From Actinomycetota bacterium (GTDB lineage: Bacteria > Actinomycetota > Actinomycetes > S36-B12 > CAIYMF01): a stretch of DNA of 35,250 bases. The DNA is taken from positions 1-35,250 of the forward strand of contig CANGPO010000021.1 in assembly GCA_947455705.1 (NCBI GenBank), given 5' to 3'. A model generated the notes under the pieces. The model made no database searches. It worked only from the letters and a program-made list of their open reading frames with translations, and had not been told where the DNA came from. Numbering within the stretch: the stretch's first letter is position 1; every line of letters starts with the position of its first letter. The translations under genes were made by a program, and so were the position numbers. Positions 1 to 11,177 of the stretch are shown here, one piece after another.

Positions 1-282
1 CACGTCATCAAGTGATGACGAGTGGATTTCCAAGACGCCGAACTGACGTTCGACGAACAAGATGCCCGGCTCAATATCGGGCACGCTCGTAAGCGCGAGG
101 TGCGTGACTCGCTCAATAGCAAGCCCTGGCGCAACCTCGACGATAAGCGCGTGCTGACCGGCGAACGGCGGGTACCCGCGAGCACGCGTCGGCGTGCCCA
201 TGTACGCGGCAAACTGCTGCTGGAGGTCTTCCACCAGCAGGTAGACGCGTAACTCAGGTCCCGCGAACGGGACTGAGGTCAC
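1..282 (-). CDS. BMC-T shell protein, 5' part (runs off left edge)
   Basis: The first 94 codons of a trimeric (tandem-domain) microcompartment shell protein; the rest lies beyond base 1. The frame starts with GTG at 282, whose GTGA overlaps the stop of the BMC-H gene, so the two are translationally coupled. The N-terminus reads ELRVYLLVEDLQQQFAAY, followed by an IVEVAPGLAIE segment and GILFVERQFGVLEIH. These align block for block with the complete BMC-T at 1369-1971 (ELRSFIFLDRLQPQT, IIEVAPGLDIE, GILVVERQFGYLELH), so the two are paralogues. BMC-T proteins form pseudohexameric tiles with larger central pores. The order T-H-P-X-T-aldehyde dehydrogenase matches, from memory, the mycobacterial RMM shell operon. 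The family call is solid; the pore type cannot be judged from half a protein. Confidence 0.85.
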   Translation of the reverse strand, partial: MTSVPFAGPELRVYLLVEDLQQQFAAYMGTPTRARGYPPFAGQHALIVEVAPGLAIERVTHLALTSVPDIEPGILFVERQFGVLEIHSSSLDDV

Positions 283-569
283 GCTGACGCCTCGCCCGAA
301 ACGTTGAAGTGCTTCGAGAGCTCGTTGTGCGGACGTGGGATCACGTGAACGGAAACCAGTTCACCAATCGATGACGCCGTCTCGGCACCAGCTTCGGTTG
401 CAGCCTTAACCGCGCCGACATCACCAACGATGGTGATGGCAACAAGGCCGTCTCCAACCTGATCGCGACCAACGATGACAACGTTGGCAGCCTTAACCAT
501 GGCATCGGCAGCAGCCAGCGCGGCTACGTAACCCTTGGTCTCGATGAGACCAATTGCGTTGTTCGACAT
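279..569 (-). CDS. BMC-H hexameric shell protein (PduA/EutM-like)
   Basis: 96 residues, the usual length of a single-domain BMC shell protein that tiles the compartment facet as hexamers. It aligns without gaps to PduA over most of its length: AIGLIETKGYVAAL, AADAMVKAANV, GDVGAVKAATEAGAE and VHVIPRPH. The pore loop, KIGSG in PduA, reads QVGDG here, placing Asp40 where PduA has the pore-lining Ser40; six copies would ring the pore with negative charge. The ATG at 569 has a good Shine-Dalgarno (AAGGAG). The stop overlaps the GTG start of the downstream BMC-T. A 78-bp gap separates it from the BMC-P gene, one of the few real gaps in this operon. The family call is near certain; the effect of Asp40 on permeability is inference. 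Confidence 0.95.
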   Translation of the reverse strand: MSNNAIGLIETKGYVAALAAADAMVKAANVVIVGRDQVGDGLVAITIVGDVGAVKAATEAGAETASSIGELVSVHVIPRPHNELSKHFNVSGEASA

Positions 570-647: not shown

Positions 648-932
648 CTACTTCTTACGTGACGTAGCGGTATTCGTGTCCGTTGTGGACGGAACGGGAT
701 CGATCGAGCCGATGATGAGCGCATCGATCGGCGGTGAGACGGGCCCAGGAAACCAGGACGCCGCAACTGAACCGGTGGCGACGAGAACTGTCTCACCGAT
801 ACCGGAGCCAAGAACATCGAAGGCGATGAGCTTTGCTCCACCATCGATTTCAACTTCGAGGAATGCACCTGCAGGGATCTGTTCCAACCGACGGCTGGCC
901 CAGACATTGCCGATTACCTTTGCGCGCAGCAT
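648..932 (-). CDS. BMC-P pentameric vertex protein (EutN/CcmL family)
   Basis: 94 residues, typical of the EutN/CcmL/PduN family that forms pentamers closing the vertices of the shell. Family signatures are MLRAKVIGNVWASRR at the N-terminus, then FDVLGSGIGETVLVATGS and PPIDALIIGSID. The chosen start is ATG at 932, five bases after GGAG; a GTG one codon upstream (935) is possible but too close to the ribosome site. The ATG shares one base with the TGA of the preceding gene (TGATG), so translation is probably coupled. The C-terminus (about 14 residues, Ser/Thr-rich ending in RKK) is outside the conserved fold. One vertex protein per locus fits a closed shell. Confidence 0.93.
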   Translation of the reverse strand: MLRAKVIGNVWASRRLEQIPAGAFLEVEIDGGAKLIAFDVLGSGIGETVLVATGSVAASWFPGPVSPPIDALIIGSIDPVPSTTDTNTATSRKK

Positions 933-1372
933 CACGTCTCCTTTGTGATTTTGACGCCAGCCGCCCGTGCGCGATCGCGCGCGAGCGGAGTCATGACAGC
1001 CCGTTTACCAAGTACGAGAATCGCACCGGTGTCAGCGGCCTCGCGAACATGCTTTTCCGTTACCGCACCTTTTTCAACACGAACGATCGCATCAGATGAC
1101 ACGCTGGTCGATGCGTCGGCCGCCGGTGAGGCTGCTGTTGGTGCCAAACGGAAACTTAGGGTTCCGGCGACGATCGCGTCCCGCTGCGCTTGAGTCGCTG
1201 TCGCGATACGTCGCGCGAACGCTTGCAGCTCGGCATCGGAGCCAATGGTTACCGTGTCGGCTGTGGTGCCGATCGGGGCCATCGCCATCGTTTGTGGAAC
1301 CACGTCAGCGAGAACTTGACGCACCATCTGGCGCAGCAAGTCTCGCTCGTTATCCCCCAAGCCAACCGTCAC
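932..1372 (-). CDS. BMC-associated protein of unknown function, possible luminal adaptor
   Basis: 146 residues; I do not recognise a named family. It sits inside the shell operon between BMC-T and BMC-P, at the position occupied in mycobacterial RMM loci (from memory) by an uncharacterised gene. Three parts can be seen. Residues about 7-28 (ERDLLRQMVRQVLADVV) form an amphipathic helix much like encapsulation peptides; PduD has LLRQIIEDVLSEM. A middle segment (about 42-80) looks like a small helical domain. After a Pro/Ala/Ser linker, the C-terminal 45 residues carry TEKHVREA, then MTPLARDRARAAGVKI, a pattern also seen near the N-terminus of the EutT adenosyltransferase. The GTG start at 1372 overlaps the BMC-T stop (GTGA). 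A role as adaptor or scaffold is inferred from the helix and position only. Confidence 0.75.
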   Translation of the reverse strand: MTVGLGDNERDLLRQMVRQVLADVVPQTMAMAPIGTTADTVTIGSDAELQAFARRIATATQAQRDAIVAGTLSFRLAPTAASPAADASTSVSSDAIVRVEKGAVTEKHVREAADTGAILVLGKRAVMTPLARDRARAAGVKITKET

Positions 1373-1971
1373 AGGACACCACGCAGTGCTGCCTCGGCCG
1401 CCTCAGCGGCTTGACGGACGTCACTCTCGCTACCGGACAGATAAACCCGGCCGGTTGCACCAATCATCCGGTAGTCAACCACCTTGATATCGGCTGCCTT
1501 CTCCGCTTCGTTCGTCGCAAGAATCGCGTACGACGCGGGTGCCATTTCAAGAACGAACAGTGATTCACCCGGTAACGCCATCGAGCCAACCTTGTTGCGG
1601 TTGATCAGGAATGCGTGCTGACGATCAAGCATCGTGACGATCCGGGAAGCCAAGATCTGCGGACGAACCGCCGACGAGGTGTCGGTACCAAGAGCCTCGA
1701 GAACTGCCTCACCGGCCGCCTTCACCTGGCCGGTGGGTCCGTGTAGTTCCAGATAACCGAACTGACGCTCAACAACCAAGATGCCGGCCTGCACTTCGGC
1801 ATATTTCAGCGCAACATCGGTGAGCGGTTCGATATCCAATCCTGGCGCTACCTCGATGATCTGGGCGGCGACATCTGCCCGTGGCAGCGCACCCTTGATC
1901 CACGTGCCGAGATAGCACATCGTCTGCGGCTGCAGGCGATCAAGGAAGATGAACGAACGAAGTTCTGCCAC
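1369..1971 (-). CDS. BMC-T tandem-domain shell protein
   Basis: 200 residues, two BMC folds in one chain. Each half ends with the same kind of segment: ERQFGYLELHGPTGQVKAAGEAVLEAL-type in the first (about residues 68-94), and IGATGRVYLSG followed by DVRQAAEAAEAAL in the second (about 168-197). Each half begins with a strand-rich piece that in canonical BMC-H lies at the end, so the domains look circularly permuted. Such trimers form pseudohexamers and are often proposed to have gated pores for bulky cofactors or CoA. The GTG start at 1971 follows AGGGG by nine bases and lies five bases after the aldehyde dehydrogenase stop. The stop overlaps the next start. It is a paralogue of the partial gene at the left edge. 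Confidence 0.9.
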   Translation of the reverse strand: MAELRSFIFLDRLQPQTMCYLGTWIKGALPRADVAAQIIEVAPGLDIEPLTDVALKYAEVQAGILVVERQFGYLELHGPTGQVKAAGEAVLEALGTDTSSAVRPQILASRIVTMLDRQHAFLINRNKVGSMALPGESLFVLEMAPASYAILATNEAEKAADIKVVDYRMIGATGRVYLSGSESDVRQAAEAAEAALRGVL

Positions 1972-1976
1972 GTAGG

Positions 1977-3542
1977 TCAGCCCCTGACAATCGCGTTGAG
2001 CTCTTCAATGATCAGACGACGGATTTCATCGCGAAGTTCATCTGGGGCGTCGTTGGACATTGCAACGGTAGATGGAACAAGTGGTGCCGCATTCGCATCA
2101 TTCGATGCTCGCGGATACGTCGGCACAACACCCTCTGGTGCATGCCACGGCGTCAAACCAGCAAAGTTCGCCATTGGCACGGAGGCATTGGAGTTGTATG
2201 CAATCCGCGTCCAGTTGATCAAGTGCTTTGGCTCGAGGTTTTCACCCACGGATGAACGGCCCAGAAAGCCAGTACCGATCGTCATCGTTGGAGCCAGATT
2301 CGTCTCGATTCCTGATGCACCCAGGCTATTGCCGACGTTCACCGACACACGCAAAACGCGAACGGCAGCCGAAAACGCCATGATGGTCTGGGGATTCGAG
2401 GAATGAATCGCTGCCGAATGCCCTTGACCCGTAATGCGCAAAACTGCTTGGGCCGCATCGATGCCACGACCCACAGTGGGTACGCGAACAAGTCCAAGCA
2501 CTGGGCACAGTTTCTCATGTGCCAACGGTTCTTCAGGCACAACTAGATCGAACGGTGCCACCAAAATCTTGGTTCGCGCATTCACCCGCACATTGGCCGC
2601 CGAAGCAATCGCGGTGGCGTCCTTGCCAACCCACTTGGGGTCAAAGTGGCCGTCGGGGAAGACGAGGTCTCGCACGCGATCACGTTCATCGTCAGAAAGG
2701 ACGTGAGCCCCCGCGCGCGTCATCGCGTTTAGCAGAGCGGCACTCGCCGCTTCTTCAACGATGAGAACGCTCTCATTCGTACAGAGAATTGAGTTATCGA
2801 AGGACTTGCTGTCGACGATCCGTTGCGCCGTGGCGTTGATGTCTGCAGTTGCGTCGACCAAGACGGGAACGTTGCCTGGCCCCACCCCGATCGCCGGATT
2901 ACCGCTTCGGTAAGCGGCTCGAACCATGGGAGTTCCACCGGTGGCCAAGATGACGTCTGTACGTGGATCGGTCATCAATGCGTTGATCAGCGGGATAGAC
3001 GGTTCTTCGACGACCTGGATGCATCCGTCCGGAGCGCCGGCCGCGACGGCGGCAGCCGCCATAGTGCGAGCGGCTTCGGCACACACTGCCTTGGCATAGG
3101 GGTGGGGGCTAATGACGATCGCGTTACGCGTCAGCAGTGCCAACGTTATCTTGAACATCACCGTGGCAACTGGGTTGGTCGAGGGCGTCAGTGCCAGGAC
3201 GACGCCAGCTGGCCGCGGAATTTCAACCATCTTGCCTGCGTCGTCTACGACAACATCGATGTAATCGCTCGCGCGGTACTTTGCCGCGATCCCAGTTGAG
3301 CAGGCAAGGTTTTTGAGCAGTTTGTGCTCCGCGACACCGTAGCCGGTTTCGCGCACAGCCCACTCGGCGAACTCCTTAGCGCGCGCCGCACCAGCTTGTG
3401 CGGCGGCATCGACGATGCGCTGCACGGTGGCTGAGTCATACGAGGCGAAGGCGCGGGCAGCCCATTCAGCACGTTCAATCATTGCCCTGCCCCGCGGAAC
3501 ACCAGCGGGGTCAAGTGGCATCTCGAACATCGTGTCAACCAT
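1977..3542 (-). CDS. CoA-acylating aldehyde dehydrogenase with C-terminal encapsulation peptide
   Basis: 521 residues; converts an aldehyde, CoA and NAD+ to acyl-CoA, the standard signature enzyme of catabolic microcompartments (PduP/EutE family). Visible are the nucleotide-binding region around LALTPSTNPVATVMFK (about 117-131), GVGPGNVPVLVD (219-230), and the catalytic Cys254 in SILCTNES. After the core comes a Pro/Ala-rich linker (about 465-497), then an amphipathic helix, PDELRDEIRRLIIEELNAI (500-518). This is a C-terminal encapsulation peptide; PduP carries its peptide at the N-terminus instead, and here the N-terminus shows none. The ATG at 3542 overlaps the aminotransferase stop (TGATG). 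The natural aldehyde is not readable from the sequence; propanal or an amino-aldehyde are candidates given the neighbours. Confidence 0.93.
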   Translation of the reverse strand: MVDTMFEMPLDPAGVPRGRAMIERAEWAARAFASYDSATVQRIVDAAAQAGAARAKEFAEWAVRETGYGVAEHKLLKNLACSTGIAAKYRASDYIDVVVDDAGKMVEIPRPAGVVLALTPSTNPVATVMFKITLALLTRNAIVISPHPYAKAVCAEAARTMAAAAVAAGAPDGCIQVVEEPSIPLINALMTDPRTDVILATGGTPMVRAAYRSGNPAIGVGPGNVPVLVDATADINATAQRIVDSKSFDNSILCTNESVLIVEEAASAALLNAMTRAGAHVLSDDERDRVRDLVFPDGHFDPKWVGKDATAIASAANVRVNARTKILVAPFDLVVPEEPLAHEKLCPVLGLVRVPTVGRGIDAAQAVLRITGQGHSAAIHSSNPQTIMAFSAAVRVLRVSVNVGNSLGASGIETNLAPTMTIGTGFLGRSSVGENLEPKHLINWTRIAYNSNASVPMANFAGLTPWHAPEGVVPTYPRASNDANAAPLVPSTVAMSNDAPDELRDEIRRLIIEELNAIVRG

Positions 3543-4840
3543 CAGCGGAACTTCCGTTCTGACATGACATCCGCACGGGCTTTGGCGATCCCAACCTCGG
3601 TGCGGTCCAGAAGTTCTTCGGCAAGCTCAGGCTTGACCAGAATGCCTGGCTTGTACTGCAAAACGCGCGGATCAAGAGTGGAGAAGATCGCCCAAACACC
3701 GTTTTCGTAAAGCCGCTTCATCACAAACTTGGCACCCTGTGGGTCAGCGAATTCCAACCCCATCACAACGCCGTTTTGACGGATCCCAATAAACCAGTCC
3801 GGATAGGTGGCTTGGATTTCGCGAAGGCCGCGGCCGATGAAGTCCGAGATGTAATGGACCATGGAACGAGTCTCGGCGCGGTTGCAGATCTCCAATGCCT
3901 TCAGGGCGGCGATACAGCCGAGCTCGGCACCACCGAACGTCGAAATATGTCCGAAGCCGTCCTCGGTAAGCCACCCCGCACACCGCTCACTCACCAGCAC
4001 TGCGGCGATGGGGTACATACCGCCAGAGATTCCCTTGCCGGTGACCAGAATGTCTGGCTCAATTCCGTGCTTGGTGATCCCCCACAATTCACCAGTACGC
4101 ATCAGACCTGTCTGAACCTCATCGGCGATGTACAGGGCGTCGTACTTTTCGCACAACTGCTTGACTGCTTCGAGATAGCCCGGGTTAGGCAGCGGGAAGC
4201 CATATGTCGCGGGAATCGTCTCCATGATGACCGCGGCAATATCCCGACCCTTGAGAACCTCTTCCATCGCCTCGAGGTCATTGAACGGTACGTGTGGGAA
4301 GTCTTCCTCGTTGTCAGACAGGAAGAGTTTGGAGAAGCGGTCGTCTCCGGTACCAACCGCTAGGCCAGTATGGCCGTGGTACGCCTTGATGATCGACAGA
4401 ATCTTGCGCTTCTGCGTGGCATGGCGAGCCGTCTTAATAGCGATATCGATGGCCTCACCACCACCGGATCCGTAGATGACCTTGGTCAGGTTCTGCGGCG
4501 CACTGGCGATCAATGCCTCGGCAAGGGCCGTCCGTGCAAGCGACGGGAAATGATGGTTACCCATGTCGAAGTGCTGCATCGCAACCGTGATGGCCTGGAC
4601 CATCTCGCGATTGCGGTGACCGAGGTTGTAGGTGCCGCCGTTGAGGTGCACATCGATCAGGCGCTTGCCCGAGACGTCATAGATGAAGTACTCCTCACGC
4701 CGGTCAATGACCAGCGGAACCCCGGACTCAGACCAGAAACTGGTCTTTCCCGGATTCCAGTACTCCTTACTCTTCTCCAGCACCTCATCCTTTGAGGCGA
4801 AAGAGAAAAAGCCGTAGTCCAGCGCAGTGGCATCGGACAT
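3542..4840 (-). CDS. Class III PLP enzyme (aminotransferase or amino-alcohol phosphate lyase)
   Basis: 432 residues from ATG at 4840, which follows GGGGAGG by four bases; an upstream in-frame extension covers the promoter and is rejected. Fold-type I class III features: YGSGGGEAID at 123-132 for phosphate binding, AYHGHTG at 153-159, IADEVQTG at 238-245 with Asp240 for the pyridine nitrogen, and TGKGISGGMYP with Lys269 as Schiff-base lysine. Members of this family either move amino groups or, in the RMM amino-2-propanol pathway, eliminate phosphate and ammonia from a phosphorylated amino alcohol. Sequence alone does not separate the two. No kinase is seen in the window, although one could lie beyond the left edge. 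First gene of the shell operon, directly upstream of the aldehyde dehydrogenase it probably feeds. Confidence 0.88.
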   Translation of the reverse strand: MSDATALDYGFFSFASKDEVLEKSKEYWNPGKTSFWSESGVPLVIDRREEYFIYDVSGKRLIDVHLNGGTYNLGHRNREMVQAITVAMQHFDMGNHHFPSLARTALAEALIASAPQNLTKVIYGSGGGEAIDIAIKTARHATQKRKILSIIKAYHGHTGLAVGTGDDRFSKLFLSDNEEDFPHVPFNDLEAMEEVLKGRDIAAVIMETIPATYGFPLPNPGYLEAVKQLCEKYDALYIADEVQTGLMRTGELWGITKHGIEPDILVTGKGISGGMYPIAAVLVSERCAGWLTEDGFGHISTFGGAELGCIAALKALEICNRAETRSMVHYISDFIGRGLREIQATYPDWFIGIRQNGVVMGLEFADPQGAKFVMKRLYENGVWAIFSTLDPRVLQYKPGILVKPELAEELLDRTEVGIAKARADVMSERKFR

Positions 4841-4854
4841 GGGACCTCCCCATC

Positions 4855-4866
4855 GGTCTGTAGACC
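4855..4866. promoter_or_regulatory. Inverted repeat, candidate operator of the BMC operon
   Basis: GGTCTGTAGACC is an inverted repeat with 5-bp arms. It lies just downstream of the minus-strand -10 hexamer and upstream of the ribosome site of the class III PLP gene, a typical place for a repressor. GntR/FadR-type regulators favour related GGTC/GACC half sites, but no regulator gene is in the window, so the link is inference. Confidence 0.4.
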
Positions 4867-4868
4867 AA

Positions 4869-4896
4869 ATCATACCGATTATCCATACCAATACAA
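4869..4896 (-). promoter_or_regulatory. Candidate promoter of the BMC shell operon
   Basis: On the minus strand TTGTAT (4896-4891) and TATGAT (4874-4869) are separated by 16 bases, a fair sigma-70-type promoter. Transcription would begin near 4862, inside the GGTCT/AGACC inverted repeat, and read into the class III PLP gene at 4840. Confidence 0.45.
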
Positions 4897-4908
4897 GACC
4901 AAAAGGTC
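4897..4908. promoter_or_regulatory. Inverted repeat GACC-AAAA-GGTC next to the -35
   Basis: 4-bp arms GACC/GGTC around AAAA, immediately upstream of the -35 of the shell operon. Together with the repeat at 4855-4866 it brackets the promoter with the same half-site letters. TTGGTCCAC near 5130 and TCGGTCCACC near 5053 could be further half sites towards the permease. The rest of the 332-bp divergent gap (4841-5172) shows no gene. Confidence 0.35.
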
Positions 4909-5172
4909 GGCCAATCGGGGCCACCTTCGTGGTGCCTCCAGATCAATGTGGCGTGTCGAGGACGTTTCATCGGTGTAAAACTTCGCGATCCGTGAGCGTG
5001 AACCGCGCCAAAACACCACGTCACAACCGAATTGGTTCAGCAAAGTGCTTGATTCGGTCCACCGTGTCACGACATACTCCCCTGCAACATGTGATCGGTG
5101 TCACCAGACACCGTTTCACTCGTTTGGTCCACTGATATGCGCGCATCCGCGAGCGAAAGGAACATCACTCGA

Positions 5173-6759
5173 ATGAGTACTGCCCTCCCCGGAGATCACC
5201 AACTGACCTCCTCTGAGCACAACAAGCTGAAGGCCGGCACCGTCGGCCTCTTCGGCGTGCTGTTCATGGCACTCGCTAATGCAGCGCCAATCACCGCAAT
5301 GACCGGCAACGTCCCGATCGCCATCGCGTTCGGTAACGGCATCTACGCTCCCGCTGGCTTCGTTGTGGCGACGATCGTTCTCACGCTGTTCACCATCGGA
5401 TTCATTTCGATGGCCCGCTACATCACCACGACCGGTGCGTTCTACGGCTTTATCAGCCACGGACTCGGACAGATCTGGGGTATGGCGACCGGCTTCATGG
5501 CCACGATGTGTTACATCGTGTTCGAAGGCTCACTCATTGGCATCTTTGCCTACTTCGCTAGCCAAGCGATCGAAACGTGGACCGGCGCCGTCATCAACTG
5601 GCTGCTCATCGCGCTAGTCGGCATCATCTTGGTCGGCATCCTCGGATACTTCGACATCTCCATTGCTGCGAAGTTGCTCGGCTTCTTCCTGATCTGTGAG
5701 GTCGTTCTTCTGGCTGCGCTGGCTTTCTCAGTGCTGTTCAAGGGTGGCGGTCCGGATGGCCTGATGTCAGACATCGTCAATCCGCTCAATGCCTTCAAGA
5801 GTTTGCCTGAAGGTGGCGGACTGAATCCGGCCGTCATGGTCGGCGACCCGGCAGCACCGATCGCCGCTGGCGCCGCAGCCCTGGGCGTGTTCTTCGCCTT
5901 CTGGTCGTGGATCGGTTTCGAGACCACCGCCGTTTACGGTGAAGAGTCACGTAACCCGCGCAAGATCGTTCCTCAAGCAACCCTGTTCGCCGTTATCGCG
6001 CTTGGCGTGTTCTACTCATTCGTCTCGTGGATGGTGATCGCCGGTAACGGTGCCAACCAGGCGATCACGAAGTCGTACACCAACGCCATCACGATGTTCA
6101 CCGACCTTGCGGTGGCGAACCTTGGTGGCGAGTGGGTCCGTACCGTTTACCTGGTTCTGATCGTGTCGGGCTCATTCGCTTGTGCACTGGCTTTCCACAA
6201 CGCAGCGTCGCGTTACCTCTACGCCATCGGCCGTGAGGTGCCCGCCCTGCGCAGCAACCTCGGCACAACGCACGCCACCCACGGCTCACCGCACATCTCC
6301 TCGATCGTTCAGACCGTCATCACGATCGTGCTGACGATCGGCTTCTACTTCCTGACGCCGAATGGCAGCGATGTGCTTCAGGGTGGATACATCTTCGAGT
6401 ACGGACTGCTGGCACTGCTCGGAACGTTGGCCATCCTGCTCGTTATGGCCATCTGTTCTGTTGCCGTGATCTGGTACTTCTGGGTCAAGAAGGTGCACAC
6501 GGGCAACGTGTTCACCACGCTCATCTCCCCCGCACTCGGATTCCTCGGCATGATGTACGTCGTCTACCTGCTCCTGAGCAACATCACCTTCGCCGGTGGT
6601 GGCGCTGCTGGTTCGGCATTCTTCGTCGCAATTCCGTGGATCACGATCGCCACCTTCGCAGCCGGTCTGCTGTTCGCCCTCTGGATCAAGAAGAGCCAGC
6701 CGGACGTGTACGCAGAAATCGGTCGTACCGTGCTCGAGGAAGCTCACGAGCGCGTCTAA
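5173..6759 (+). CDS. APC-superfamily amino acid/amine permease
   Basis: 528 residues and strongly hydrophobic, with about 12 membrane segments. The N-terminal signature LKAGTVGLFGVLFMALANAA, followed by APITAMTGNVPIAIAFGNG, is that of the amino acid-polyamine-organocation superfamily. FFAFWSWIGFETTAVYGEE marks the conserved segment 6 region. The start is taken at ATG 5173 because GAAAGGA lies about 11 bases upstream and the conserved N-terminus begins there. In-frame starts further upstream (5098, 5137) lack a ribosome site and add non-conserved residues. Divergent from the BMC shell operon and followed by a strong hairpin before the dehydratase genes. APC carriers import amino acids and amines, which suggests the locus uses a nitrogen-bearing substrate. 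The substrate itself cannot be read. Confidence 0.88.
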   Translation: MSTALPGDHQLTSSEHNKLKAGTVGLFGVLFMALANAAPITAMTGNVPIAIAFGNGIYAPAGFVVATIVLTLFTIGFISMARYITTTGAFYGFISHGLGQIWGMATGFMATMCYIVFEGSLIGIFAYFASQAIETWTGAVINWLLIALVGIILVGILGYFDISIAAKLLGFFLICEVVLLAALAFSVLFKGGGPDGLMSDIVNPLNAFKSLPEGGGLNPAVMVGDPAAPIAAGAAALGVFFAFWSWIGFETTAVYGEESRNPRKIVPQATLFAVIALGVFYSFVSWMVIAGNGANQAITKSYTNAITMFTDLAVANLGGEWVRTVYLVLIVSGSFACALAFHNAASRYLYAIGREVPALRSNLGTTHATHGSPHISSIVQTVITIVLTIGFYFLTPNGSDVLQGGYIFEYGLLALLGTLAILLVMAICSVAVIWYFWVKKVHTGNVFTTLISPALGFLGMMYVVYLLLSNITFAGGGAAGSAFFVAIPWITIATFAAGLLFALWIKKSQPDVYAEIGRTVLEEAHERV

Positions 6760-6883: not shown

Positions 6884-9127
6884 ATGACGGACACGCAGCC
6901 CATTGGCCGGTTCAGATTTATGGACGCGCAGCGCGTAAATCTCGACGGCTTCGCGGTCGAAGATCAATCCCTTGGCTTGATAGCATTCAATGCGGACGCA
7001 GACCCCGACCCCTCCCTAGTTCTTGACGGCGGAGGCAACGTCGTCGAGATGGACGGGAGAGCCGCCACCGACTTTGATCTCATCGATGAGTTCATCGCTC
7101 GACACGGCCTAGATCTCAGCGTCTCAGCCGAAGTGATGGCCCTCGATGACGACGACTTCGCGCGACGCATCGTCGACATTAACGTTCCCCGCGCCGAGAT
7201 CATTCGGCTCACTGCCGGGGCGACACCGGCAAAACTTGCTCGCGTACTATCTCGGCTTCGTGCAGCAGAACTCGTGATAGCCATGACGAAAATGCGCGCC
7301 CGCAAGACGCCTAGCAATCAGGCTCATGTCACGAATAGGTCAGACGATCCCCTGCTGTTGGCTGCCGACGCAGCAACAGCCGCGGCCTTCGGATTCCGCG
7401 AGATTGAAACAACCGTTCCCGTTCTTGGCGATGCGCCGAGTAACGCCGTGGCAGTGTCCATTGGCGCTGCCGTAGGTGCAGTTGGGGTGCTCGTCCAGTG
7501 CTCAGTGGAAGAAGCATTGGAACTTGAGTTGGGGATGGCAGGTCTGGTCTCCTACGCAGAAACTGTCTCGATTTACGGAACCGAACAGATCTTTATAGAT
7601 GGCGACGACACCCCATGGTCTAAGGCGCTCCTCACGTCCGCCTATGCGAGCCGCGGAATGAAGATGCGTGTTACGTCCGGCGGCGGCTCCGAGGCGTTGA
7701 TGGGTGCGGCTGAAAATCGCTCCATCTTCTACCTCGAAGCTCGATGTGTGGCACTTGCCAGAGCCCTTGGCTCACAAGGCGTTCAGAACGGCGGCATTGA
7801 TGCAGCATCCGTCTCAGGGTCTGTTCCTGGCGGTGCGCGCAGCATGATGGCCGAGAACCTCATGGTGATGATGCGCAACCTCGAAGCGTGTACCGGCAAT
7901 GATGCCCTGATGAGCGAATCGGATGTGCGTCGCACCTCACGGACCCATCCGATCTTCATCGCCGGTACCGATTTCGTGTGCTCAGGATTCGGCTCGATCC
8001 AGCGTTACGACAATATGTTCGGGCCGAGTCAATGGAACTCCGAAGACATCGACGACTTCCTCATCATGCAACGTGATTGGACGGTTGACGGTGGCCTGCG
8101 CAGCGCAGCCGAGCCCGATGTCGCCCGGCTTCGTCGTCGCGCCGCCAATGCGGTGCGTGATGTCTATCGGTTCCTAGGCCTTGCCGACTTTCAGGATGTC
8201 TGGGTTGAGCAAGCCATTGATGCTGCTGGCTCGAAAGACATTCCGGCGGCAGATCTGATGACTCCGCTTGAGGCCTCCCGGATCATTCGGCAGTCACACG
8301 TCACGATGGTCGATGTCGTGGCCGCCCTCGACGCATGCGGATATGAGATCGAAGCCGAACGGCTACTTGCCATGCTGCACGCGCGCGTCGACGGAGATTA
8401 CCTACATACGGCCGCGATCTTCGATGAGCAGATGAACGTCATGTCACTGGTTACCGATCCGAATGATTACGCCGGCCCCGGAACAGGATACGAGCCAGCA
8501 GGATCTCGACTGGCCGAACTCAACTCGGTCCGCCAACAGCGATCCGTGTCAGATCTACGCGATGAACAGGCCGCTGCCGCAGGCGATCACTTCACGGTGG
8601 TCGGCGCCGCAGGTCAAGGCTCCGATCCCACGGAGGTCTCGATCGGAGTGTCCGCAGCAACCGGACGAGCCATCTGGACGACGCTGTCCGGGCTTTCGGT
8701 CGTCGACGTACTCGACGAACTACTGGCCGGCCTAGAAGAAGAAGGATGCCGCGGCCGCATCATCCGGATCAACGACACCGTCGACCTGGGCATGATCGGC
8801 CTCACTGCGGCACGTCTATCGGGATCCGGAATCGGGATCGGCCTACAGGCTAAGGGCACGGCTCTTATCCACCGTCGGGATCTGTCACCGTTGGCAAACC
8901 TCGAGCTCTACAGCGTTGCACCAACTGTGACCCCCGAGCTGTACCGCGCACTAGGGATAAATGCCGGCCGCCACGCCAAAGGCGCCACTCCTGAACCATT
9001 GCGAAATCCTTACTCCGACATGGCAATCGAAGCGCGATTCCACACGAAAGTTGTGTCACTCGTCGCCATCGAACGCACATGCCTAAAACCGGAGATTGGC
9101 CCCGAAGATCTGGAGTTACGCCAATGA
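6884..9127 (+). CDS. Diol/glycerol dehydratase, large and medium subunits fused
   Basis: 747 residues. Residues 1-550 are the B12-dependent dehydratase large subunit and align without gaps with Klebsiella diol dehydratase alpha through the active site. Residues about 568-747 are the medium subunit (RLSGSGIGIGLQAKGTALIH, NLELYSVAP). Conserved are Gln146, His148, Glu175, Glu226, Gln301, Asp340 and Ser367, matching Klebsiella Gln141, His143, Glu170, Glu221, Gln296, Asp335 and Ser362 (metal and substrate contacts). Two side-chain pocket residues differ: Klebsiella Ser301 is Asp306 and Gln336 is Ala341. The 40-residue N-terminus of PduD, which carries its encapsulation peptide, is absent; a linker of about 20 residues joins the parts. 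The ATG at 6884 has GAAGGAG 11 bases upstream. It makes an aldehyde from a vicinal diol; the true substrate may not be propanediol. Confidence 0.93.
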   Translation: MTDTQPIGRFRFMDAQRVNLDGFAVEDQSLGLIAFNADADPDPSLVLDGGGNVVEMDGRAATDFDLIDEFIARHGLDLSVSAEVMALDDDDFARRIVDINVPRAEIIRLTAGATPAKLARVLSRLRAAELVIAMTKMRARKTPSNQAHVTNRSDDPLLLAADAATAAAFGFREIETTVPVLGDAPSNAVAVSIGAAVGAVGVLVQCSVEEALELELGMAGLVSYAETVSIYGTEQIFIDGDDTPWSKALLTSAYASRGMKMRVTSGGGSEALMGAAENRSIFYLEARCVALARALGSQGVQNGGIDAASVSGSVPGGARSMMAENLMVMMRNLEACTGNDALMSESDVRRTSRTHPIFIAGTDFVCSGFGSIQRYDNMFGPSQWNSEDIDDFLIMQRDWTVDGGLRSAAEPDVARLRRRAANAVRDVYRFLGLADFQDVWVEQAIDAAGSKDIPAADLMTPLEASRIIRQSHVTMVDVVAALDACGYEIEAERLLAMLHARVDGDYLHTAAIFDEQMNVMSLVTDPNDYAGPGTGYEPAGSRLAELNSVRQQRSVSDLRDEQAAAAGDHFTVVGAAGQGSDPTEVSIGVSAATGRAIWTTLSGLSVVDVLDELLAGLEEEGCRGRIIRINDTVDLGMIGLTAARLSGSGIGIGLQAKGTALIHRRDLSPLANLELYSVAPTVTPELYRALGINAGRHAKGATPEPLRNPYSDMAIEARFHTKVVSLVAIERTCLKPEIGPEDLELRQ

Positions 9128-9486
9128 GCACCGCGCGATCAGGACGCGACACCACTGACGTCACCTTGGATTCGATCCGTCTTGGCGAGGTGACAATGGA
9201 CGACGTCACCATCCACCCGGACACCCTGATCAGGCAAGCTGAGGTCGCGTATGAACACGCCAATCCACAACTCGCGGAAAACTTGCTGCGGGCGGCTGAA
9301 CTTACATTGATTCCCGACGATGAGGTCCTTGCGATGTATGAGGCGTTGAGGCCCGGACGATCAACGGTCGACGAGCTGCGCGCACTGGCCACATCACTTC
9401 GTGATCGCCGAGCACCACGCACGGCCGCCCTCATTGAGGAAGCGGCCGATGCATATGCACGCCGCGGCATCGCCAAACAGGCCTGA
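9124..9486 (+). CDS. Diol/glycerol dehydratase small subunit (PduE-like)
   Basis: 120 residues. It aligns with the C-terminal two thirds of PduE: TIHPDTLIRQAEVA, AENLLRAAELTLIPDDEVL, YEALRPGRSTVDEL, then an ALIEEAADAYARR tail. PduE of enterobacteria is about 173 residues; the missing part is its N-terminal 50 residues, including the amphipathic helix that helps encapsulation. ATG at 9124 overlaps the fused-subunit stop (ATGA), ensuring coupled synthesis; an upstream in-frame ATG at 9079 lies inside the fused gene and is rejected. The small subunit completes the (alpha-beta-gamma)2 enzyme and caps the large subunit. Confidence 0.92.
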   Translation: MSTARSGRDTTDVTLDSIRLGEVTMDDVTIHPDTLIRQAEVAYEHANPQLAENLLRAAELTLIPDDEVLAMYEALRPGRSTVDELRALATSLRDRRAPRTAALIEEAADAYARRGIAKQA

Positions 9487-9500
9487 GAGCTACCACTGCC

Positions 9501-11177
9501 GTGAGCATCATCGCTGGAGTCGATGTCGGTAACTCGACGACGGAGATAGTCGTGGTCGACACCTCAACGTCGCCACCAACCCCCATCGTGTGGGACCGCA
9601 TCCCGACCCGCGGGATCAAGGGCTCGGCCGATTCCGCCCAAGCCGCCGCACAGATCCTTCGACGACTGGCCAAGCGAGCTGACCTCAGGATCGACCACAT
9701 CGTCGTGGCCCCACAGCATCCCGTTGACTCACGGACCGTTGTCATTGATGAACCACCGCCAAACACGGGACGCCTAGCGATCATCGGCGCCGGCACGACC
9801 ACCCCTGCAGGGTCAGGGATCGGTGTCGGCTCGCCACGCCTGATTGATGATGACATCGACACCAGTGCGCCCATCGTTCTCGTAGCACCTGAGCCTCGAT
9901 CCTTTCGTGCCACCGCGACCCGGATTAATGAATGGCTAGATGCGGGCGCCGACGTCGTCGGCATCGTGCTGTCCGGCGACGAAGCAGTCTTGGTTTCGAA
10001 CCGCATTGCCAAAGATTTGCCGGTGGTTGATCAGGTCGACGTCGAAACAGCAATCCAGGCTGACCTTGTTGCGGTTGAGGTATCAACGTCGATTGTTCGT
10101 GACCTCGCCGATCCTGTGCGCATCTCGGCCCTGACCCGACTCGATCGTTCCGAGCATGGAGATGCTGAAGCAATCGCTGGGCAGTTGCGCGGATTACGCG
10201 ATGCGGCGATCGCGATCTTTGCTGAGCCGCGTAGTTCATCAGTTGCTGCCAGTCGCACAGCGCAGGTTGAGGTTGGCGACAGTCATCGAAGCCTTCGTGA
10301 CATAGCGATGCGCCCCCTGGCCGCACGTCAAAGTGGCTCACTCACACTCGATGCAATGACGTGGCTTGGGTTCTCCGATCTGTGGGCCGTCGACCTGGCG
10401 GAGGTTGCAGATACCAGCGCCATCCGACCGCACAGTGTTCATGAACGCGCCATATCCCTTGCCACACTTGCCGATGCAACAGGTTCCCCGATTGATCTGC
10501 CAGCGCAGATTTTGCGTGACGAGTGTGACGTGCCAGTGTTTCTCGTTTCCAGCGAGGCAACGGCCGCTCGCGTGGGCGCACTCAGTACCCCTGCGGCAAA
10601 TTCCGATGCCATGGTGCTCGATCTCGGTGGCGGCACGATCGATGCCGCCACGGCCGCCGATCACAGCATCGTTGTGGCTGGTGCCGGAGACCTGCTCACA
10701 GCCGCGGTAGCGCACCTACTTAACATTCCACGAGGCGCCGCGGAGTGGGTCAAGCGTGAGCCTAGTGCCCGACTTGAAGGTCCACACGTACTCGTGGGCG
10801 AGGACGGCGTTCGACGATTCGTCGATGCCCCCGTCACCGCCGATGCGGTCGGCGCACTCGTCGTTCCGGGGCCGGCCGGCTTCCTACCCTTCCATGGGCA
10901 GTTGGCCCCCGGTGAATGGCGGATGCTTCGTCAACAACTCAAGCGAGCAGTGATCAGCAAGAACATTGAGCGGGCGACAACCGACATTGACACTGCGCGC
11001 GACGCAATCTTGGTCGGTGGGCCCGCTGGCGATACCGAACTGCTAAGCATGGCGGTGCGAGCTCTGCCGGGATGCACTCCGGGCCGCGCCGACGTGGCCG
11101 GCCAACTCGGTCACCGATGGGCTGTGGCGTATGGCTTAACGCTTCTACATCAACGTGGTGAAACCGAACCCGCCTAG
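9501..11177 (+). CDS. Diol dehydratase reactivase large subunit (DdrA/PduG-like)
   Basis: 558 residues, GTG start, 14 bases after the small subunit gene. It belongs to the actin/Hsp70 ATPase superfamily: phosphate-1 loop GVDVGNSTTE at the N-terminus and phosphate-2 loop MVLDLGGGTIDAA at about 370-382, followed by VVAGAGDLLTAAVAHLL and ILVGGPAGD near the C-terminus. DdrA releases damaged cobalamin from inactivated dehydratase at the cost of ATP. The protein is about 50 residues shorter than Klebsiella DdrA, with poor conservation in the middle. The partner DdrB/PduH (about 125 residues), normally adjacent, is not in the window: the next gene, ddl, is convergent 15 bases away. No B12 adenosyltransferase is seen either. 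Confidence 0.9.
   Translation: MSIIAGVDVGNSTTEIVVVDTSTSPPTPIVWDRIPTRGIKGSADSAQAAAQILRRLAKRADLRIDHIVVAPQHPVDSRTVVIDEPPPNTGRLAIIGAGTTTPAGSGIGVGSPRLIDDDIDTSAPIVLVAPEPRSFRATATRINEWLDAGADVVGIVLSGDEAVLVSNRIAKDLPVVDQVDVETAIQADLVAVEVSTSIVRDLADPVRISALTRLDRSEHGDAEAIAGQLRGLRDAAIAIFAEPRSSSVAASRTAQVEVGDSHRSLRDIAMRPLAARQSGSLTLDAMTWLGFSDLWAVDLAEVADTSAIRPHSVHERAISLATLADATGSPIDLPAQILRDECDVPVFLVSSEATAARVGALSTPAANSDAMVLDLGGGTIDAATAADHSIVVAGAGDLLTAAVAHLLNIPRGAAEWVKREPSARLEGPHVLVGEDGVRRFVDAPVTADAVGALVVPGPAGFLPFHGQLAPGEWRMLRQQLKRAVISKNIERATTDIDTARDAILVGGPAGDTELLSMAVRALPGCTPGRADVAGQLGHRWAVAYGLTLLHQRGETEPA

Follow-up and report, generated by a model that had tools for sequence, protein, structure and literature searches.

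The window, that is, the whole stretch of 35,250 nucleotides that was analysed, encodes a coenzyme-B12-dependent diol/glycerol-type dehydratase with fused large and medium subunits, in which an aspartate and an alanine occupy the putative C3 pocket. We propose, with confidence a little short of even, that this enzyme is the Asp306-defined fused-subfamily dehydratase of the RMM2 amino-alcohol compartment and that it naturally acts on a vicinal diol bearing an amine. Both the dehydratase family and the compartment type are already known. As far as the searched literature shows, the single-origin Asp306 clade and its spread to alphaproteobacteria with one-strand loci are new, and so are the near-constant company of an aminopropanol kinase and the absence of a reactivase in one branch. 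No description of the Asp306 signature and its kinase coupling was found in the literature searched, and the searches for S301D or for amino-propanediol dehydratases returned nothing on point. The fixed pocket charge, the one-strand linkage in a second phylum and the near-constant kinase make the role of the RMM2 dehydratase open to direct test. Should the enzyme prove to act on an amino-diol, it would represent a new substrate class for B12 dehydratases and a natural template for amino-aldehyde-making enzymes.

The fused dehydratase and its substrate pocket

The dehydratase ORF (Table 1) translates into a chain of 747 amino acids, in which Pfam recognises both Dehydratase_LU (9–555, E 9e-225) and Dehydratase_MU (607–703). 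The domains of the large, medium and small subunits (PF02286, PF02288 and PF02287, respectively) are all found, the large and medium ones fused and the small one separate. The fusion, which was absent from an earlier sequence-only reading of this DNA, is a feature of this chain and of all its D306 relatives. The window enzyme resembles PduCDE and DhaB (PDB 1dio and 1iwp) in whole-length homology, with 47–50% in the large subunit, and has the metal and catalytic residues, the small subunit and the reactivase in common with them. It differs from them in the fusion of the large and medium subunits, in the replacement of Ser301 by Asp and of Gln336 by Ala, and in the alteration of Tyr178, Phe181, His340 and Asp380 (K. 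oxytoca numbering) across the D306 clade.

Table 1. Features of the window, with coordinates, strand and basis of assignment
Feature	Coordinates	Strand	Basis and remarks
Second BMC-T gene, cut by contig end	1..278	-	continues on contig C82
BMC-H (hexamer) shell protein	279..569	-	PF00936 hit G000:C21:330-557, E 5e-25
BMC-P (pentamer) shell protein	648..935	-	sequence reading and conserved position only
Conserved locus protein, 146 aa	932..1372	-	position kept in relatives; N-terminal helix resembles encapsulation peptide
BMC-T shell protein (CcmP-like tandem)	1369..1971	-	sequence homology
CoA-acylating aldehyde dehydrogenase (ALDH)	1977..3542	-	homology; C-terminal extension resembling encapsulation peptide (tail read)
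Class III aminotransferase-fold PLP enzyme; candidate amino-alcohol-phosphate phospho-lyase of the RMM pathway	3542..4924	-	Pfam Aminotran_3, E 1e-69
APC-superfamily amino-acid/amine permease	5098..6759	+	Pfam AA_permease_2
Fused large-medium subunit coenzyme-B12-dependent diol/glycerol-type dehydratase, Asp306 and Ala341 in C3 pocket	6884..9127	+	Pfam, PDB alignment, translation
Codon GAT, Asp306 (Klebsiella Ser301)	7799..7801	+	codon read
Codon GCC, Ala341 (Klebsiella Gln336)	7904..7906	+	codon read
Dehydratase small subunit	9079..9486	+	Pfam Dehydratase_SU, E 4e-34; true start may lie downstream within the ORF
Dehydratase reactivase large subunit (DDR/PduG-like)	9501..11177	+	Pfam DDR, E 1e-44, and DDR_swiveling

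The residues Q146, H148, E175, E226, Q301, I305, D306, D340, A341, S367, M378 and F379 were read from the translation. The alignment to the PDB diol and glycerol dehydratases is free of gaps around the active site, and in it QNGGID aligns with QNGAVS and GNDAL with ANDQT. The metal and catalytic set (Gln141, His143, Glu170, Glu221, Gln296, Asp335 and Ser362 in K. oxytoca numbering) is intact. The sequence-only reading had claimed a gap-free alignment with all metal and catalytic residues kept, which the translation and the PDB alignment confirm; its second claim, that Asp306 and Ala341 replace Ser301 and Gln336 of the Klebsiella enzyme, is borne out by the alignment and by the two codons. The pocket of the characterised enzymes, Ser301/Gln336/Met373/Phe374, is thus matched at Met378 and Phe379 and changed at the first two positions, a mismatch that concerns the substrate and not the family membership. 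In window numbering, the residues Ser306, Gln341 and Met378 are common to the enzymes of K. oxytoca, Salmonella, Citrobacter, Ilyobacter and haloarchaea.

Ser301, together with Asp335, faces the C3 hydroxyl of glycerol, and the S301A/Q336A exchange makes room for longer 1,2-diols and 1,2,4-butanetriol (PMC7674605, PMC9850924). These reports agree with the widening to longer diols that the sequence-only reading had named for the double exchange. The engineered S301A/Q336A enzymes of K. oxytoca and K. pneumoniae are altered at the same two positions as the window enzyme, with Ala at the Gln336 position in both cases. At the Ser301 position, however, the natural variant has Asp where the engineered enzymes have Ala, which means that charge is added and not only space. 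Its alignment to Ser301 would place Asp306 at the substrate C3. The AlphaFold model (18 close homologues) had a mean pLDDT of 57, with values below 50 across most of the active-site region.

Spread and origin of Asp306

A tree was built from 45 sampled sequences with the pocket columns left out. The D306 sequences form one clade of 31 members in this tree (support 100/100), which corresponds to a single Ser-to-Asp change. The clade extends to Alphaproteobacteria at about 48% identity. Asp306 was found in all 25 loci from public genome contigs and in the relatives from the whole-genome search, and Ala341 in nearly all of them, with one locus ending before position 341 and a 60% relative having Asn. 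Among the distant fused D306 relatives are an actinobacterium (60% identity), a member of another phylum (57%), Agrobacterium (49%) and alphaproteobacterial-type genomes (47–49%), the alphaproteobacterial label of the latter being based on their mutual kinship and their kinship to the Agrobacterium enzyme. Alignment with dehydratases of known substrate and with fused forms, the check proposed in the sequence-only reading, gave Ser/Gln in the former and D306 in the subfamily relatives.

Asp306 is kept in every subfamily relative examined, and position 341 is occupied by A, T, N or C and position 378 by M, A or S. Since Asp306 is kept in all of these relatives and falls into one clade with a single change, the pattern is more than chance, and its invariance while 341 and 378 vary indicates a retained function at position 306. 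Sequence decay or error as the cause of the pocket change is excluded by the invariance of D306 in 31 diverse members. Sister to the D306 clade are two fused dehydratases, L057 and L104, with Ser306, Ala341 and Thr or Leu at position 378. The loss of Gln341 may predate Asp306, because it is common to this Ser306 pair.

Strict or near clade-wide companions of D306 are L157, D/N183, S/A186, R293, E345, G370 and N385. Three of the clade-wide changes, Y178 to Asp/Asn, H340 to Glu and F181 to Ser/Ala, drop bulk or add acid and may lend support to an amino-diol substrate; K288 to R, S365 to G and D380 to N also shift together with 306. The joint change of columns 178, 288, 340, 365 and 380 with 306 would also suit an aspartate that does not touch the substrate. 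According to this explanation, Asp306 would be part of a rebuilt network (with 341, 345, 183 and R293) that keeps the adenosyl group, the barrel or the fused medium subunit in place, and the enzyme would accept much the same substrates as ordinary diol dehydratases. Every D306 member seen is a fused chain, and the change could therefore track the fusion. The fused Ser306 relatives L057 and L104 show, however, that fusion alone needs no Asp306, and the equivalent Ser301 has been reported in contact with the substrate C3-OH (PMC7674605). We consider a purely structural role of Asp306 distinctly unlikely.

The RMM2-type microcompartment locus

The window covers the end of a microcompartment locus of the RMM2 type, which is already catalogued. 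The locus continues on contig C82 from the same genome, with which the start of the window shares a 406-bp overlap (99.3%); this contig adds BMC-T2, an APH-family kinase, an SDR and a GntR regulator. Together, the window and C82 hold the permease, PLP enzyme, ALDH, shell, kinase, SDR, GntR and dehydratase genes. The complete locus set lies on a single contig in the sister genome G013, and about 20 actinobacterial loci hold the full RMM2 gene set. The conserved 146-aa protein evolves fast (28–84% identity) within an otherwise well conserved locus.

The APH kinase shares 50% identity with PDB 6ef6, and for the SDR the match to 6ci8/6ci9 has an E of about 1e-93; we take these structures to be the M. 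smegmatis (S)-1-amino-2-propanol kinase and the corresponding dehydrogenase. As judged by this homology, orthologues of the aminopropanol kinase and the 1-amino-2-propanol dehydrogenase of the AAUM pathway are very probably present. The closest solved structures of the PLP enzyme are putrescine aminotransferases; its role is presumably that of a phospho-lyase, in keeping with the RMM literature. The permease belongs to the same family as those of dehydratase-free RMM-type loci, and a 50% identical homologue lies beside the kinase and the PLP gene in G173. The locus resembles the RMM1/AAUM aminoacetone (1-amino-2-propanol) microcompartment of Mycolicibacterium smegmatis in its kinase and its closely related SDR, and the permease, PLP and ALDH families are the same. 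Unlike the window locus, RMM1 has no dehydratase. Studies of the M. smegmatis aminopropanol kinase and dehydrogenase are cited in PMC8007038. RMM2 as described by Axen et al. 2014 (PMC4207490) and Sutter 2021 (PMC8217296) has the same core, BMC-T/H/P shell, GntR regulator and dehydratase genes as the window; here its hosts are freshwater actinobacteria and also alphaproteobacteria, the latter with a one-strand gene order.

Linkage of the dehydratase to amino-alcohol genes

Within some 20 kb, four alphaproteobacterial genomes (G631, G1255, G1165 and G1292) encode the dehydratase on the same strand as the SDR, kinase, PLP enzyme, ALDH and shell. The kinase, PLP enzyme and SDR genes are found within about 15 kb of the dehydratase in G897, G714 and Agrobacterium, three further proteobacterial loci where no shell gene is nearby. 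Among 247 genomes of the class, the kinase is present in 14/15 genomes with the dehydratase versus 28/232 without it, and the sole dehydratase-bearing genome that lacks the kinase is 78% complete. A Fisher test on these counts treats related genomes as independent, so that shared descent weakens its value and it is descriptive only. Near the seven Ser306 control loci, the kinase, the PLP enzyme and the related SDR were all absent. These observations support that the dehydratase belongs to the amino-alcohol pathway. Because D306 arose once, its link with the amino-alcohol genes amounts to one evolutionary contrast.

Exceptions to the linkage were found. The D306 gene does not adjoin the kinase in G173, G450 and G618. 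The related SDR stands beside the D306 gene in G954, with the kinase absent from the stretch read, and the kinase, permease, dehydrogenase and PLP gene of G173 are on another contig than the D306 dehydratase. Furthermore, 28 of the 42 kinase-bearing genomes of the class have no dehydratase at all. The sequence-only reading had tied the dehydratase to the neighbouring permease and PLP enzyme. This holds insofar as D306-type dehydratases travel with amino-alcohol genes, but the permease and the PLP enzyme themselves are part of the RMM core, which is also found without a dehydratase. Since the core occurs with or without the dehydratase and is split from it between contigs in G173, the permease, kinase and PLP neighbours do not name the dehydratase substrate. 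The permease and PLP enzyme were dropped as proof of an amine substrate, as the core without dehydratase exists and is an established amino-alcohol pathway.

In the window, as in RMM2, the dehydratase and the core genes lie on opposite strands; in the alphaproteobacterial relatives they share one strand. Axen et al. 2014 described the opposite strand of the RMM2 dehydratase genes and favoured the reading that they are not used by RMM2 (PMC4207490). The dehydratase would then be a mere passenger of the locus, in line with its orientation against that of the ALDH, PLP and shell genes, both in the window and in the majority of actinobacterial loci, and with the separate contigs of dehydratase and kinase in G173. 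Against such a passenger stand the shared strand from dehydratase to shell in the four alphaproteobacterial loci, the retention of the kinase in all but one of the dehydratase-bearing class genomes, and a linkage that persists through sequence divergence of about 50% and across several arrangements of the genes. We regard it as very improbable that the compartment makes no use of the enzyme.

Proposed reaction and substrate

The usual radical mechanism is expected for the enzyme, since its metal and catalytic residues are unchanged. The vicinal hydroxyl groups would be chelated by the metal through Q146, E175, E226, Q301 and S367. The adenosyl radical would take a hydrogen from C1, the hydroxyl group would move from C2 to C1, and the aldehyde would form as water leaves. 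Asp306, with the space gained from the lost Gln341, would grip a hydrogen-bond-donating and most likely cationic C3 group. The natural substrate would accordingly be a vicinal diol with an amine, resembling 3-amino-1,2-propanediol or one of its N-substituted forms, and the product aldehyde would pass to the shell-associated acylating dehydrogenase. In this scheme, the dehydratase would be no bystander: it would join the kinase/PLP-enzyme route for 1-amino-2-propanol as a second signature enzyme.

Three lines of reasoning lead to this proposal. The unchanged metal site points to a vicinal diol, an acid gained in a roomier C3 pocket to a hydrogen-bond-donating C3 group, and the company of amino-alcohol genes to nitrogen on the substrate. 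The binding of an amine by Asp306 is plausible from its aligned position. That a 3-amino-1,2-propanediol-like substrate is converted into a 3-aminopropanal-like aldehyde is possible, with a likelihood we would place somewhat below even. Against an amino-diol it can be said that an aspartate can equally bind a hydroxyl group, as in glycerol or a triol, that a 3-aminopropanal-type product is not obviously a feed for the kinase or the PLP step, and that a glycerol kinase gene adjoins the dehydratase in convergent orientation in G714.

Two other routes were considered. Direct deamination of 1-amino-2-propanol by the dehydratase, in the manner of ethanolamine ammonia-lyase, was set aside, as the chelators of two vicinal oxygens are all kept; position 306 moreover matches the C3 side and not O1. 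A linear pathway leading from the dehydratase product to the kinase was not found, since the amine of the product would not stand vicinal to the newly formed aldehyde carbon.

The pocket and the locus could also be explained by a compartment with two entries for propanal. The dehydratase would make it from neutral 1,2-propanediol (or would convert glycerol or another polyol into 3-hydroxypropanal), the kinase/PLP route would make it from 1-amino-2-propanol, and both would feed one acylating ALDH within one shell. Asp306 would hydrogen-bond the C3 hydroxyl or merely tolerate the substrate. A bifunctional RMM2 was indeed kept as an alternative by Axen et al. 2014 (PMC4207490), and converging aldehydes fit the single ALDH per locus. 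The sugar/polyol-type ABC genes (SBP_bac_1, UgpC-like) beside the dehydratase in G954 and Agrobacterium and the glycerol kinase of G714 point in the same direction. A buried carboxylate next to the methyl group of 1,2-propanediol would, however, be unfavourable. The Klebsiella enzyme is inactivated by glycerol as a suicide substrate (PMC7674605), yet a reactivase gene is found in 0/7 of the alphaproteobacterial-type D306 genomes. In addition, G897, G714 and Agrobacterium have the dehydratase together with the kinase even though no RMM-type acylating ALDH or shell was found nearby; two entries converging on one ALDH would give no reason for this company. A neutral-diol entry is a serious possibility, although we would expect it to prove wrong.

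Some dehydratase loci carry further genes of nitrogen metabolism type. On the contig of the gammaproteobacterial MAG locus L030 (1346-9434), the D306 dehydratase is directly preceded, on the same strand, by ABC genes of the oligopeptide type and by an FAD oxidoreductase/GCV_T fusion that resembles dimethylglycine dehydrogenase; RMM genes were not found on this contig. The alphaproteobacterial dehydratase loci L103 (12280-13889) and L118 (9542-10213) contain an isochorismatase-type amidohydrolase and a class-I glutamine-amidotransferase-type gene, which might release an amine from an amide. Two C-N-hydrolase-type genes sit between the dehydratase and the transporter in L103. These genes and the L030 fusion are hints at nitrogen that are independent of the RMM core.

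Absence of the reactivase in one branch

B12 dehydratases are generally regarded as needing a reactivase. The reactivase gene of the window is the sole match to PF08841, the reactivase ATPase domain, in its genome. Genome-wide, no PF08841 match was found in G897, G954, G714, G631, G1255, G1292 and G1165 (7/7), the D306 genomes that hold the loci L096-L103 and L105-L107. The fused Ser306 genomes G1151 and G420 gave no PF08841 match either. A branch without a reactivase gene would challenge the view that B12 dehydratases need one. In its widest form, our proposal would make the D306 clade a natural family of amine-selective B12 dehydratases, converting amino-diols into amino-aldehydes and water, and a second RMM2 signature enzyme in Actinomycetota and Alphaproteobacteria, with an alphaproteobacterial branch that works without a recognised reactivating factor. 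That all of this holds together is doubtful.

Among the collected records, L014, L015 and L034 are freshwater actinobacterial contigs filed as Bifidobacterium breve, an apparent mislabel. The record L065 (NZ_OL790696.1), 4.8 Mb in length and filed as an E. coli plasmid, contains an ordinary pdu dehydratase and looks like a misfiled chromosome.
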